A stretch of DNA of 64,000 bases from Corallococcus soli. GTDB lineage: Bacteria; Myxococcota; Myxococcia; Myxococcales; Myxococcaceae. Shown in pieces: positions 48,763 through 55,636 of this stretch. Position 1 is the first letter of the stretch; each line of letters begins with the position of its first letter. Position numbers and translations under genes: made by a program. Below the pieces are notes generated by a model. The model did no database searches, was not told where the DNA came from, and saw only the letters and a list, made by a program, of their open reading frames with translations. Location: the NCBI RefSeq assembly GCF_014930455.1, contig NZ_JAAIYO010000009.1, forward strand, positions 62,001-126,000, read 5' to 3'.

Positions 48763-49260
48763 ATGAATGACCCCACCGCTCCCAAGACGGCCGACCTCTG
48801 TGACGCCCACGCCGGCACCGCGCACTTCCAGGTCGCCGAGCCGGGCTTCCTGGACTACGGCGGCCGCCGTGACTTCCAGGGTCCCATCAGCACCGTGCGG
48901 GCCCCGGAAGACAACTCACTCGTGCGCAAGGCCTTGGAGGAGCCCGGCCAGGGCCGCGTGCTGGTGGTGGATGGCGGGGGCAGCCGCCGGTGCGCACTGG
49001 TGGGGGATCAGCTCGCCGAACTCGCGCGGAAGAACGGCTGGGCGGGCGTCGTGGTGAACGGCTGCATCCGCGACGCGGAGGAGGTGGGCCGCACCGCCAT
49101 CGGCGTGAAGGCGCTGGGCACCCATCCGCTGAAGAGCGGCAAGCGCGGCGAGGGCCAGCGCGACGTGGAGGTGCGCTTCGCCGGGGTGAGCTTCATCCCG
49201 GGCCATCACCTCTACGCGGACGCGGACGGCATCGTCACCGCCGCGAAGGCGCTGTCCTGA
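48763..49260 (+). CDS. rraA: RraA-family protein
   Basis: 165 aa. [20 protein letters not shown] and [21 protein letters not shown] match the RraA/HMG-CHA aldolase fold; the D-x20-R-D pattern of aldolase members ([16 protein letters not shown]..., CIRD) is present, so this may act as a class II aldolase (4-hydroxy-4-methyl-2-oxoglutarate type) rather than an RNase E inhibitor. ATG 48763. Its 3' end overlaps the convergent oxyR by 26 bp. Confidence 0.85.
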
Positions 49261-50182
49261 CCTTCGCGGGCTTCGTGCTCCCCGGCCACACCGAGCGCAG
49301 CGTCCCGGCGATGGCGCGCAGCGCCTCCGCCCTGGGGTGGCCCTGGCGCCACGCCAGCACCAGGGTCCTTCCCGGCACCGGCGGGGCGAAGGGCCGCACC
49401 ACGAGCTGCCCCTGCCGGTTCTCCCGGGACACCGCGAGCTGGGGCAGGAGCGTGACGCTGCCGGACGCCATCACCATCTGCGCCAGCGTCGTCAGGCTGG
49501 TGGCCCGGAAGTCCACCTCGCGCGCGCCCACCCGCGTGCACAGCGCCAGCGTCTGGCTGCGGAAGCAGTGCCCGTCCTCCAGCAGCAGCACGTCCTCGTC
49601 GTCCAGGTCGCGCAGCCGCACCTCCTTCTTGCGCTCCAGCGGGTGCCCCGGCGGCGCGGCGACGACGAAGGGGTCCTCCGCGATGATCTCGTGCTCCATC
49701 GCCTGGCCCTGCTCCGCGTCCAGCGCCAGCAGCGCCGCGTCCAGCCTGCCCTCGTCCATGTCCCGCACCAGCACCGCCGTCTTCTCCTCGCGCAGCCGCA
49801 GGCGCAGCTTCGGGTAGCGCTTCACCAGCGCCGGCACCACCTCCGGCAGCACGTAGGGCGCCACCGTCGGGATGGCCCCCAGGTGCAGCGGGCCGGCGAA
49901 CGGGTCCCCCATCCCCTCCGCCGCCTTCAGGAGATGCTCCGCCTCCGTCAGCACCCGCCGGGCCCGGGCCACCAGCGCCGTGCCCGCGGGCGTGGGCATC
50001 ACCCGGCGCGCGTTCCGTTCGAACAGCTTCACGCCGAGCACCGCCTCCAGCTGCTGGATTTGAGCGCTCAGGGCCGGCTGGGAGACGTGGCACCGCTCGG
50101 CCGCCCGCCGGAAGCCCAGCGTGTCCGCCACCGCCACCAGGTATTCGAGCTGCCGCAGGGTGATGTCGTTGAGAGAGGCCAT
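49235..50182 (-). CDS. oxyR: OxyR-type hydrogen peroxide sensing LysR regulator
   Basis: 315 aa. N-terminal LysR helix-turn-helix ([32 protein letters not shown]). In the sensor domain Cys206 (EDGHCFRSQ) and Cys215 are nine residues apart, as the redox pair Cys199/Cys208 of E. coli OxyR. Peroxide would oxidise the pair and turn on katA. ATG 50182 has AGGAGG 4 nt upstream. It diverges from katA, with a perfect OxyR-type palindrome in the shared promoter. Confidence 0.9.
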
Positions 50183-50198
50183 GGACCCTCCTGGAGCC

Positions 50199-50215
50199 GA
50201 TAGGCAGGGCCTATC
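50199..50215. promoter_or_regulatory. OxyR-type operator between oxyR and katA
   Basis: GATAGGCAGGGCCTATC is a perfect 7-bp inverted repeat with a 3-bp spacer; it contains ATAG-N7-CTAT, the LysR/OxyR half-site arrangement. It lies 17 nt upstream of the oxyR ATG and about 95 bp upstream of katA, so it can both repress oxyR and activate katA. Confidence 0.75.
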
Positions 50216-50308
50216 ACTCCCATCCAAACGATGTCTTGGCCTGATTCACGGGCGCGGCCTACTGTTCCCCCCGTTGAAGTCCCCTGAAGCCTTCGCGAAG
50301 GAGAGTCC

Positions 50309-51784
50309 ATGTCGTCCAAGCGCCCCACCCTGACCACCGAAGCGGGAGCCCCGGTCTCCGACAACCAGCACTCGCAGACGGCGGGCCCCGGCGGCCCGGT
50401 GCTGCTCCAGGACCACCACCTGCTGGAGAAGCTGGCCCGGTTCAACCGCGAGCGCATCCCGGAGCGCGTGGTGCACGCGGTGGGCTCCGGCGCCTACGGG
50501 ACCTTCGAGGTGACGTCGAAGGAGGTGTCGCGCTACACGCGCATGAAGCTCTTCAGCGACGTGGGCAAGAAGACGGAGGCGTTCCTGCGCTTCTCCACCG
50601 TGGCGGGCTCCAAGGGCGCGCCGGACACGGCCCGCGACCCGCGCGGCTTCGCGGTGCGCTTCTACACGGAGGACGGCAACTGGGACCTCGTGGGCAACAA
50701 CACGCCGGTGTTCTTCCTGCGCGACGGCATCAAGTTCCCGGACTTCATCCACTCGCAGAAGTACGACCCGTACACGAACTGCCAGGAGCCCGACAACGTC
50801 TGGGACTTCTTCTCCTACTCGCCAGAGGCCACGCACCAGTTCACCTGGCTCTTCGGTGACCGGGGCATCCCCGCGAGCCTGCGGCACATGGATGGTTTTG
50901 GCTCCCACACCTTCCAGTGGGTGAACGCGCAGGGCGAGCGCTTCTGGGTGAAGTTCCACTTCAAGACCGACCAGGGCATCCGTACCTTCACCACGCCGGA
51001 GGCGGAGGTCGTCGGGGGCAAGGACCCGCAGCACCACCAGCGCGACCTGTACCAGGCCATCGACCGGGGCGAGTTCCCCTCGTGGACGCTGAAGGTCCAG
51101 GTGATGCCGGAGGCGGAGGCCGTCAACTACCGCTTCAACCCGTTCGACCTCACCAAGGTGTGGCCCCACAAGGACTACCCGTTGATGGAGGTGGGCCGGC
51201 TCACGCTGAACCGCAACCCGGAGAACTTCTTCGCGGAGGTGGAGCAGGCGGCCCTGGACCCGGCGAACTTCGTGCCCGGCATCGGCCCGTCGCCGGACCG
51301 GATGCTCCAGGCGCGCCTGTTCGCCTACGGCGACGCGCACCGCTACCGGCTGGGCATCAACGGCACGCAGCTGCCGGTGAACTCGCCCCGGGGGGTGAAG
51401 GGCGGCGCGCGCAACTACGGCCGCGACGGCGCCATGCGCTTCGACGGCAACGGCGGGCGCGGCCCCAACTACGAGCCGAACAGCTTCAACGGCCCGGCGC
51501 AGACGGAGGAGGCGTCCGGCCTGGGCTACACGGTCAGCGGCCTGACGGGCACCTACGTCCACGGCAAGCACGCGGAGGACAACGACTTCGTGCAGGCCGG
51601 CGACCTGTACCGACTGATGACCGAGCCACAGAAGCAGCGACTGGTGGAGAACATCTCCGGCAGCCTCGCGCAGGTGAGTCAGGAGGACATCATCGTCCGC
51701 GCCATCTCCCACTTCCGCGCCGCGGATGAGGAGTACGGTGCCCGCATCGCCACCGCCGTGCAGCAGCTGCGCCGCGCGCGCTGA
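50309..51784 (+). CDS. katA: Monofunctional haem catalase (small-subunit type)
   Basis: 491 aa. Distal His56 ([12 protein letters not shown]), the Asn of [10 protein letters not shown] (130/131) and the proximal haem Tyr in [14 protein letters not shown] are all present. Size and lack of a C-terminal flavodoxin domain put it in the small-subunit catalase group. It disproportionates H2O2 in the cytoplasm. ATG 50309. Expression is probably driven by OxyR; an ankyrin gene follows after 20 bp. Confidence 0.95.
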
Positions 51785-51804: not shown

Positions 51805-52344
51805 ATGAATCCGCCCACCGACCCGAAGAATCCCCCCACCCCTCCTGGCGCGGACGCTGACGACGCCGCCCTGATGGAGCTGGCGCGGGGCGCTTTCACG
51901 CTCGCGCGCGCGGGGGATGCCCAGCAGCTGGGCGGGCTGCTCGACGCCGGGCTCCCGGTGGGCCTGCGCAACGAGCGGGGGGACTCGCTGTTGATGCTGG
52001 CCAGCTACCACGGCCACGCGGAGGCCACCCGCGTGCTCCTGGAGCGTGGCGCGGATCCGGAGCTGACCAACGACGCCGGACAGACGCCGCTCGCGGGGGC
52101 CGCCTTCAAGGGCAACACCGCCATCGCCGCGCTGCTGCTGGACCGGGGCGCGCGCGTGGACGGCGCGGGCAGGGATGGGCGCACGGCGCTGATGTTCGCG
52201 GCCATGTTCGACAAGCTGGAGATGCTGGAGCTGCTGCTCCAGCGCGGCGCGAAGCAGGACCAGCGGGACGCGGACGGGCGCACGGCCCTGGACTACGCCC
52301 GGTCCATGGGCGCCGCGCGCACGACCGCCCGACTGGAGTCCTGA
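51805..52344 (+). CDS. Ankyrin-repeat protein, catalase partner
   Basis: 179 aa with four ankyrin repeats (ERGDSLLMLASYHGHAEATR, DAGQTPLAGAAFKGNTA, DGRTALMFAAMFDKLEMLE, DGRTALDYARSMG). It follows katA by 20 bp and is surely co-transcribed. In Pseudomonas an ankyrin protein (AnkB) next to a catalase gene is needed for full catalase activity, so an accessory role for KatA is likely. No signal peptide seen. Confidence 0.88.
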   Translation: MNPPTDPKNPPTPPGADADDAALMELARGAFTLARAGDAQQLGGLLDAGLPVGLRNERGDSLLMLASYHGHAEATRVLLERGADPELTNDAGQTPLAGAAFKGNTAIAALLLDRGARVDGAGRDGRTALMFAAMFDKLEMLELLLQRGAKQDQRDADGRTALDYARSMGAARTTARLES

Positions 52345-52398: not shown

Positions 52399-54303
52399 TC
52401 ACGCGTTCGTGTGGCCCCAGGTGCCCGCCTCCGGCCGGCCATCCGACTCCGTGTCCAGGGGCGAGTCCTCCACCAGCGAGGTGACGCTGTCGACGATGTG
52501 CTCCGCGTCGATGCCGGCCGCGCTCAGCAGCTCGTCGGGCTTGCCGGAGCCGGGCAGCTTCTTCACCGCCAGGCGCACCACGGTGGGCAGCCGCGCGCGC
52601 TCGCCCGTGAAGGCCTCCAGCACCGCGTCCCCCAGGCCGCCCTCGGACCAGTGGTCCTCCACGACCAGGATGCGGCCCTGCGTTTCGCGCGCGGCCTTGC
52701 GCAGCGTCTTCACGTCCACGGGCTTCACCGAATAGAGGTCGATGACGCGCACCTGGACGCCGTCCTCCTTCAGCAGCGCGTACGCCTTGAGCGCCTCGTG
52801 CAGCGTGATGCCGGCGCCCACCACCGTCGCCACGTCCTGGTCGGACTGGCGCAGCACCTTGCACCCGCCAATGGGGAACTCCTCCGACGCGGGGTAGAGC
52901 ACCGGCGTCTTCTCCCGCGTGCTGCGCAGGTAGGTGATGCCCTGGCACTCCACCAGCTGCGCCAGCAGCTTCGCGGTCTGGTTGGCGTCGCTCGGGTAGA
53001 CCACGGTGCTGCCCCCCACCGCGCGCATCATGGCCAGGTCCTCCAGTGCCATCTGGGAGGGCCCGTCCTCGCCAATGGACACCCCCGCGTGGCTGCCGCA
53101 CAGGTGCACCGTGGCGTTGGAGAGGGCCGCCATGCGGATCTGATCGTACGCGCGCGACAGGAAGGCCGCGAAGGTGCTCACGAAGGCGCGCTTGCCCAGC
53201 ACCGCCATGCCCACCGCGGTGGACACCATGTTCTGCTCGGCGATGTACATCTCGAAGTAGCGCTGGGGGTGGGCCTTCTTGAACTCCTGCGAGTAGGTGG
53301 AGTTGGAGACCTCCGCGTCCAGCGCCACCACGTCCGGGCGCGCGGTGCCCAGCGCCAGGAGCGCGTCGCCGTAGGCCTTGCGCGTGGCCTCCTTCTGACC
53401 GACCTCGTACATGGGCAGCTTCAGCGCGGAGGCCGCGTCCTGGCCGGAGGGGCGCATCGCGTCCGGCTTCTTCACCTGGATGCGCACGTCGCGCTCGCCG
53501 CCCAGCTCCTGGATGGCCTCCTTCGCCTTGTCCTCCGGGAGCGGCTTGCCGTGCCAGCCGGGCTGGTTGGCGATGAGCGAGTAGCCCTGGCCCTTCTGCG
53601 TCTTGAAGACGATGCAGGTGGGCTGGCCCCTCTTGCCCTGGGCCTCGGTGAAGGCCCGGTCGATGGCCTCCAGGTCATGCCCGTCCACGGCCACCGCGTG
53701 CCAGCCGAAGGCCCGGGCGCGGGCGAGGTACGCGTCCGCGTCCCAGCCCAGCTCCGTCTCCGTGCTCTGGCCCAGCCGGTTCATGTCGATGAGGGCGCAC
53801 AGGTTGTCGAGCTGGTAGTGGCCCGCCTTGTCGAAGGCCTCCCACACGGAGCCTTCGGCGGTCTCGCTGTCCCCCATCAGCACGTAGGTGCGGAAGGGCA
53901 GCCGGTCCAACCTCGCGGCCAGCGCCATGCCCACGCCAATGGCCAGCCCCTGCCCCAGCGAGCCGGTGGCCACGTCCACGAGCGGCAGGACGTGTGGATT
54001 GGGGTGGCCCTCCAGCCGGCTGCCGAACTGGCGCAGCGTCATCAATTCCGTGTCGTCGATGGCGCCCGCCGCCTTGAACGCGGAGTAGAGGACCGGGCAG
54101 GCGTGGCCCTTGGAGAGCACGAAGCGGTCGTTGTTGGGCGCCTTCGGCTGCTGGAAGTCGAAGCGCAGGTGCTTCTGGAACAGCACCGCCACGATGTCCG
54201 CCGCGGACATGGACGAGCTGGGGTGGCCCGAGCCCGCCGCCGTGGTGCAGCGGATGCTGTCGATGCGCAGCTGCGCCGCGAGGTCCGCCAAGGTGTCCGC
54301 CAT
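52399..54303 (-). CDS. tkt: Transketolase
   Basis: 634 aa, single chain. The thiamine diphosphate motif is clear (GDSETAEGSVWEAFD ... NRLGQS), as are GHPSSSMSAADIVAVLF near the N-terminus and the pyrimidine domain with EQNMVSTAVGMAVLG. The length and pattern match the shorter transketolases of the animal/archaeal type rather than the 660-aa TktA. Moves two-carbon units in the non-oxidative pentose phosphate pathway. ATG 54303. Diverges from tal over 211 bp, so the two are likely coregulated. Confidence 0.92.
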   Translation of the reverse strand: MADTLADLAAQLRIDSIRCTTAAGSGHPSSSMSAADIVAVLFQKHLRFDFQQPKAPNNDRFVLSKGHACPVLYSAFKAAGAIDDTELMTLRQFGSRLEGHPNPHVLPLVDVATGSLGQGLAIGVGMALAARLDRLPFRTYVLMGDSETAEGSVWEAFDKAGHYQLDNLCALIDMNRLGQSTETELGWDADAYLARARAFGWHAVAVDGHDLEAIDRAFTEAQGKRGQPTCIVFKTQKGQGYSLIANQPGWHGKPLPEDKAKEAIQELGGERDVRIQVKKPDAMRPSGQDAASALKLPMYEVGQKEATRKAYGDALLALGTARPDVVALDAEVSNSTYSQEFKKAHPQRYFEMYIAEQNMVSTAVGMAVLGKRAFVSTFAAFLSRAYDQIRMAALSNATVHLCGSHAGVSIGEDGPSQMALEDLAMMRAVGGSTVVYPSDANQTAKLLAQLVECQGITYLRSTREKTPVLYPASEEFPIGGCKVLRQSDQDVATVVGAGITLHEALKAYALLKEDGVQVRVIDLYSVKPVDVKTLRKAARETQGRILVVEDHWSEGGLGDAVLEAFTGERARLPTVVRLAVKKLPGSGKPDELLSAAGIDAEHIVDSVTSLVEDSPLDTESDGRPEAGTWGHTNA

Positions 54304-54514
54304 CGTGTCGCTCCCGGTCAGAGAAGGGGGCACCCCGGTGCCCTCCGTACTGTGTTGACTGACGCGGCCTGGGAGAAGCGGTCCACCCCGCCGGCCCCGG
54401 GCCCAGGCAGAATCCGCGAGTGCCCGCCCGCCCGCTCGGACATGGGGGACCGGACGTGGTCATCTTGAACGAACGCCATCCGGGAGCCTCCGCGCTCCCC
54501 CCGGAGAAAGACCC

Positions 54515-55636
54515 ATGAACCCGCTTCGACAGCTTGCCGAGCTTGGCCAATCCCTCTGGGTGGACAACCTCCAGCGCAGCTACATCACGAAGGGCACCCT
54601 GAAGAAGTTCATTGAAGAGGACGGGCTCAAGGGCCTCACCTCCAACCCCACCATCTTCCAGAAGGCGGTGTCGGGCAGCGAGGACTACCAGGACCTCTTC
54701 GACGCGGCGAAGGGCAAGGGGCTGTCCGGAAACGACCTCTATGAGCAGCTGGCGGTGCGGGACGTCCAGGGCGCGGCCGACATCCTGAAGCCGGTCTACG
54801 AGGCGACGAAGGGCCAGGACGGCTATGCGTCGCTGGAGGTGTCGCCCCGGCTCGCGCTCGACACGAAGGCGACGCTGGAGGAGGCGCGGCGGCTGTGGAA
54901 GACGCTCGCGCGCCCCAACGTGATGATCAAGGTCCCGGGCACGCTGCCGGGACTGCCGGCCTTCGAGCAGCTCACCGCCGAAGGCATCAACGTCAACGTG
55001 ACGCTGCTCTTCAGCCAGGAGCGCTACAAGGAGATCGCCGAGGCGTACGTGTCCGGCCTGGAGAAGTTCGCCGCGTCAGGCGGGGACGTGAGCCGTGTCG
55101 CGAGCGTGGCGTCGTTCTTCATCAGCCGCATCGACGCCATCGTGGACAAGGAGATTGAGAAGAAGGTGAAGGCGGGCGCCACGCCCGAGCAGCAGAAGGC
55201 GCTGGAGGGCCTGAGCGGCAAGGTGGCCATCGCCAACGCGAAGCTCGCCTACCGCACCTTCAAGCAGGTCTTCAGCGGCGCCCGGTGGGAGGCGCTCGCG
55301 AAGAAGGGCGCCAAGGTGCAGCGCGTGCTCTGGGCGAGCACCAGCACCAAGAGCCCCAAGCTGCGCGACGTGCTCTACGTGGAGGAGCTCATCGGCAAGG
55401 ACACGGTGAACACCATGCCGCCCGCGACGATTGATGCCTTCCGGGACCACGGCAAGGTGCGCGCGAGCCTGGAGGAGGACCTCCCGGCCGCGGAGGCGAC
55501 GATGCGCCAACTGGAGACCGCCGGCATCTCCATGAAGACCGTCACCGACCAGTTGGCCACCGACGGCATCCGCCTGTTCGAGGAGTCCTTCGACCAGCTC
55601 CTGTCCGCGGTGGGCGAGAAGCTGGCGAAGACCTAG
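54515..55636 (+). CDS. tal: Transaldolase (long type)
   Basis: 373 aa. LTSNPTIFQKAVSGSEDY at the start, the Schiff-base Lys in NVMIKVPGT and NVTLLFSQERY are all there; the length fits the 360-380-aa bacterial group (TalB class with C-terminal extension, as in cyanobacteria and actinobacteria). Transfers dihydroxyacetone units. Together with the divergent tkt it completes the non-oxidative pentose phosphate branch. Confidence 0.93.
   Translation: MNPLRQLAELGQSLWVDNLQRSYITKGTLKKFIEEDGLKGLTSNPTIFQKAVSGSEDYQDLFDAAKGKGLSGNDLYEQLAVRDVQGAADILKPVYEATKGQDGYASLEVSPRLALDTKATLEEARRLWKTLARPNVMIKVPGTLPGLPAFEQLTAEGINVNVTLLFSQERYKEIAEAYVSGLEKFAASGGDVSRVASVASFFISRIDAIVDKEIEKKVKAGATPEQQKALEGLSGKVAIANAKLAYRTFKQVFSGARWEALAKKGAKVQRVLWASTSTKSPKLRDVLYVEELIGKDTVNTMPPATIDAFRDHGKVRASLEEDLPAAEATMRQLETAGISMKTVTDQLATDGIRLFEESFDQLLSAVGEKLAKT

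Follow-up and report, generated by a model that had tools for sequence, protein, structure and literature searches.

A candidate two-part OxyR operator in the divergent oxyR-katA promoter of Corallococcus soli and its relatives

The site at 50199–50215 of the Corallococcus soli DNA analysed here (a 64-kb stretch of contig NZ_JAAIYO010000009.1, hereafter the window) is very probably part of the operator of the adjacent OxyR regulator, as predicted from comparison of related genomes. It lies between the divergently transcribed oxyR and katA genes (Table 1) and is followed at fixed spacing by a second conserved block, the two together making up a 41-bp element. The module is an ordinary OxyR-katA-ank arrangement under a well-known type of control; what is mildly new is that relatives carry a conserved site beside a HupE-like gene, none being found in the window's genome.

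Table 1. Features of the oxyR-katA-ank locus in the window
Feature	Position	Strand	Remarks
oxyR, LysR-type regulator	49235..50182	-	315 aa; C206 and C215
Putative oxyR ribosome-binding site AGGAGG	50187..50192	-	read from sequence
oxyR-katA gap			126 bp, between oxyR ATG 50182 (minus) and katA ATG 50309
First dyad GATAG-N7-CTATC	50199..50215	.	GATAGGCAGGGCCTATC; proposed high-affinity OxyR dyad
Conserved 41-bp element	50199..50239	-	CCAAGACATCGTnnnGATGnnnnTGATAGnnnnnnnCTATC in the oxyR direction; aligned in 22 loci; proposed OxyR operator
Second block	50222..50236	.	ATCCAAACGATGTCT; proposed activation dyad; centre 22 bp from first dyad centre
Putative katA -35 TTGGCC	50236..50241	+	TTGG (CCAA) invariant in 22 of 22 rows
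Putative katA -10 TACTGT, weak	50260..50265	+	18 bp after the -35
katA, haem catalase	50309..51784	+	491 aa; Pfam Catalase, 630.8 bits
ank, ankyrin-repeat protein	51805..52344	+	179 aa; Pfam ankyrin repeats; 20 bp after katA

A first-pass annotation had placed ATAG-N7-CTAT in the divergent oxyR/katA promoter, and so it is: the exact motif occupies 50200–50214, with G and C on its flanks. The same annotation described the site as an exact 17-bp palindrome, which is wrong, since only seven of the eight arm pairs of GATAGGCAGGGCCTATC are complementary and A50206 stands opposite G50208. The extent given for the site was also too short: 50199–50215 is only the oxyR-proximal half of the conserved element.

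The assignment of the regulator rests on several comparisons. The oxyR product carries the LysR helix-turn-helix (PF00126) and substrate-binding (PF03466) domains, both above cut-off, and the two NCBIfam models that fit it best are both for OxyR. The OxyR equivalog NF008361, best of the 25 families shown, scores 285.7 bits, below its curated cut-off of 329. Among solved structures, the protein comes closest to chains named OxyR or hydrogen peroxide-inducible genes activator. C206 and C215 lie nine residues apart, exactly as had been claimed for this protein, and align with both cysteines of chain 1i6a, which we take to be E. coli OxyR. Of the 96 family genomes, 50 have an OxyR homologue (E <= 1e-40); each of the residues Thr106, His205, C206 and C215 is conserved in 39 of the 40 loci scanned from these homologue-bearing genomes, Thr106 missing from the truncated L029 and the other three from the truncated L168.

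We compared the 50 OxyR loci together with their upstream DNA and counted 24 close oxyR-katA gaps, leaving out nine loci without a motif of at least 6/8 (L029, L037, L045, L046 and L048–L052) and a further 17 that did not belong to the close katA-linked set. The first dyad matches the motif at 7 or 8 of 8 positions in all 24 gaps, and the eight ATAG/CTAT columns are 79–100% identical; because this dyad anchored the alignment, its own conservation is favoured, while that of the second block is not. The second block (minus strand AGACATCGTnnnGAT) is identical in 12 of its 15 columns across all 24 gaps and runs into the putative katA -35. At the position of the putative -10, relatives carry TACCTT or TACTTT. 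A generic promoter scan returned no katA promoter at this gap; such a missing match is what an activator-dependent promoter would normally give, yet it lends no support.

In PMC8787470, OxyR targets are described as two tandem ATAG-N7-CTAT dyads with a 7- to 10-bp interval; according to PMC3953959, a tetramer binds four ATAG elements set 10 bp apart. Set against this layout, the window has a first dyad at 8/8 consensus positions, an interval of 7 bp and a second dyad at 4/8. The dyad spacing fits the published OxyR layout, with a second block that is poor in consensus. Like the operators bound by OxyR in E. coli and Shewanella oneidensis, the element consists of two tandem dyads with a 7-bp interval, the first being ATAG-N7-CTAT; unlike them, the second block of this family keeps four of the eight consensus positions and has a conserved sequence of its own, AGACATCGT...GAT.

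How closely the element follows OxyR was followed with a sequence-only model built from 22 elements. At E <= 0.01 the model gave 58 matches, 22 of them training rows, in 45 of the 96 family genomes. OxyR is present in 50 genomes, the element in 45, both in 44 and neither in 45 (Fisher p 1.4e-19, a value that ignores kinship). The exceptions are G085, with a weak partial element match without OxyR, and six genomes with OxyR and no element match (G073, G088, G091, G093, and G029 and G037, whose loci are broken). By our own assignment, 57 of the 58 matches lie beside oxyR, catalase, katG, ahpC or a HupE-like gene: 25 are in oxyR-katA gaps, two at oxyR beside another catalase, five at oxyR starts without a catalase match, 20 at hupE-like genes, three at catalases whose upstream 2 kb, as read, contain no oxyR (L064, L065 and L066), one at an ahpC-like gene (Pfam) and one at katG (a frame recognised by eye, with a partial match). 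The G085 match is unassigned.

Co-occurrence was scored over the 96 family genomes, and beyond the family OxyR was searched for in the genomes bearing a model match. When the search was extended to the order (145 genomes, family included), 13 further matches appeared in nine genomes outside the family, all 13 beside relevant genes: two at katG, four at Dps/ferritin-like genes (one divergent from oxyR), two at rubrerythrin, two at katA divergent from oxyR, two at hupE-like genes and one at oxyR. One katG, one Dps-like and one rubrerythrin assignment were checked with Pfam. An OxyR match of 53–59% identity is present in eight of these nine; in the ninth, G121, which is 74% complete, the best OxyR match is 28% identical.

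The HupE-like gene occurs in 32 of the 96 family genomes and has a model match upstream in 20. It encodes a HupE/UreJ-like membrane protein (e.g. L125:3096-3683, L123:3095-3685 and L133-L162); its Pfam match is borderline, with 24.7 bits in one protein (cut-off 24.5) and 21.3 in another, and there was no NCBIfam match. The DNA upstream of hupE could be read in 30 of the 32 genomes. In all 27 that also bear OxyR it scores at least 15.2 with the matrix (one of them a training row); in the three without OxyR, G055, G061 and G064, the scores are -17.1, -7.6 and -17.6. In close relatives oxyR sits just behind hupE, and in these three it is gone, the best remaining LysR-type matches being 33–34% identical. 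Upstream of their hupE genes CGATGTCTTGGAAC and the downstream promoter are retained, while GATAG-N7-CTATC has decayed. The three genomes are closely related, and a single event may lie behind all three. Taken by its upstream sequence, the HupE-like gene is a probable OxyR target.

ATAG-N7-CTAT is compatible with the general T-N11-A shape of LysR-type sites, and each genome holds many LysR-type genes (several weaker matches apiece); another LysR-type or an unrelated regulator could thus bind the dyad, with OxyR a mere neighbour. We consider this unlikely, given that the element tracks OxyR across the 96 genomes, that elsewhere it precedes katG, dps, rubrerythrin and ahpC-like genes, and that the GATAG dyad has decayed in the three oxyR-less genomes even though they retain other LysR-type genes. 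We infer OxyR to be the binder, as first proposed, because of the co-occurrence (OxyR is present in 44 of the 45 element-bearing family genomes), the identity of the neighbouring genes inside and outside the family, and the fact that the dyad has decayed in the genomes that lost oxyR.

A role of the inverted repeat as a hairpin of the oxyR leader RNA is very improbable. The minus strand of the C. soli genome does allow a stem of 7 bp closed by a 3-base loop immediately 5' of the ribosome-binding site, but across the 24 loci the inner pairs drift (pair 6 is complementary in 7/24, pair 7 in 18/24 and pair 8 in 1/24), and the dyad is also found 5' of the putative -35s of hupE and of oxyR-distant catalases, outside those transcripts. 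We therefore reject the hairpin.

A search for the motif elsewhere in the genome had been suggested as a check. ATAG-N7-CTAT occurs at a single place in the window (shuffles: mean 0.01, with a match in one of 100) and at three places in the 9.44-Mb genome, against five for a reversed control pattern; GATAG-N7-CTATC with up to two mismatches occurs 430 times against 443 for its control, and without mismatch once. The bare motif is thus not enriched over the reversed control in the 9.44 Mb, and with three places against five it means little: what counts is its location in the gap. One of the other two places lies just 5' of a 476-aa frame (L002) and the other within an 840-aa frame (L003), and neither region gave a score with the 41-bp matrix. 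The full element, by comparison, is found once, at oxyR-katA: the only full model match in the genome is the window site (E 1.6e-10, with the best 150 of 3027 first-look candidates scored), and with a matrix stripped of own-genus rows and L006 this site reaches 57.0, the next place in the window 0.5. Chance as the source of the site is scarcely credible and is rejected: the genome count of the bare motif is at control level, but the probability of such a site landing in the oxyR-katA gap is ~4e-5 to 6e-5, and its spacing to the second block is fixed in 24/24 gaps and conserved across genera.

The two halves of the element do not always travel together. At nine OxyR starts without an upstream catalase match (L030, L033, L035, L038, L040, L042, L043, L044 and L053), 6 to 8 of the 8 positions of the first dyad are retained, whereas the second block is mostly or wholly missing. 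On the simplest reading of these sequences, the first dyad would anchor OxyR and serve autoregulation, while the second would serve activation of the facing gene. Against a strict rule of this kind, L027, L034, L036 and L041 keep both halves without a catalase match, and at L039 (G073) a divergent oxyR-catalase pair has a weak 6/8 dyad and lacks the second block.

Autoregulation had been predicted for the site, and the place of the first dyad agrees with it. The first dyad lies 17–33 bp ahead of the oxyR start codon, and bound OxyR should consequently limit its own transcription; the prediction is less general, since 9 of the 50 OxyR starts have no motif of at least 6/8. Two of these nine are truncated genes, and the other seven (L037, L045, L046 and L048–L051) are apparently whole starts without a 6/8 dyad. 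In L008 (G022) and L011 (G020) the leader is shorter and the dyad falls directly on the oxyR start codon (CTATG), an overlap also seen in several more distant relatives; oxyR may be leaderless in L008 and L011.

In the mechanism that we infer, an OxyR tetramer would sit on the two tandem dyads of the shared promoter, the strong one next to oxyR and the weaker one abutting the putative katA -35. Peroxide would drive formation of the C206-C215 disulfide, upon which the tetramer would shift its contacts; so reshaped, it would bring RNA polymerase to katA, yielding catalase and the ankyrin protein. Bound OxyR would at the same time limit oxyR transcription. OxyR binding, the redox switch, the promoter assignments and the sign of each regulatory effect are here predictions, built on the observed element with its spacing, conservation, co-occurrence with OxyR and neighbouring genes.

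As the target of this control, katA-ank had been proposed from the outset, and both its position and the presence of an ank homologue downstream of the catalase in 14 of the 16 loci examined support it. A haem catalase gene directly followed by an ankyrin-repeat gene is the make-up of a katB-ankB-type operon. The katB-ankB operon of P. aeruginosa is OxyR-controlled, and AnkB is said to be required there for optimal KatB activity. The window locus resembles it in the order of catalase and ankyrin genes and in its putative OxyR control, but differs in that oxyR is divergent from the catalase gene. Divergent oxyR-katA pairs are known from alphaproteobacteria such as Agrobacterium and Sinorhizobium, where, as here, regulator and catalase share one control region; the window locus belongs to another phylum and has an ankyrin gene after its catalase.

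Within the C. soli genome the element has a single high-scoring site. At two other catalases and at three AhpC-like matches the DNA read contains no element, and a search for a HupE-like gene gave no match at E <= 1e-8. OxyR of C. soli may serve only its own locus, although weak sites would escape the search. A broader proposal, to which we give even chances, is that OxyR of Myxococcota also commands the HupE/UreJ-like protein and that in Corallococcus, which lacks the gene, the OxyR regulon has shrunk to one locus. The membrane protein would then plausibly be a metal transporter and a standing branch of the peroxide response, and Corallococcus OxyR would serve only itself and katA-ank; the proposal taken whole could equally well prove right or wrong.

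For predatory myxobacteria, the element offers a candidate operator of the peroxide response. Its two halves are partly separated by natural variation: several oxyR starts carry the GATAG dyad but no second block, both halves precede catalase and hupE genes that are away from oxyR, and loss of oxyR is accompanied by decay of the GATAG dyad. No study of the operator was among the matches listed for OxyR in Myxococcus xanthus, myxobacteria, Myxococcales or Anaeromyxobacter, nor among those for OxyR with HupE/UreJ or OxyR comparative genomics; this silence is weak evidence of novelty, as subscription journals lie mostly outside the coverage.

Several loci of the family depart from the usual arrangement. 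In L079 (G029) and L080 (G037), oxyR and katA are present without facing 5' ends and without the element: the OxyR match of L079 begins at residue 34 and its katA match at residue 5, and the katA match of L080 begins at residue 137. Either a natural deletion or an error of assembly could account for these broken loci. Four fragmented genomes from the window's genus (G023, G025, G026 and G030) gave no OxyR, catalase (E <= 1e-150) or element match, for which whole-locus loss and missing contigs are alternative explanations. Finally, beside katA-ank in the window, at 52399–55636, transketolase-like (minus strand) and transaldolase-like (plus strand) frames were recognised by eye.
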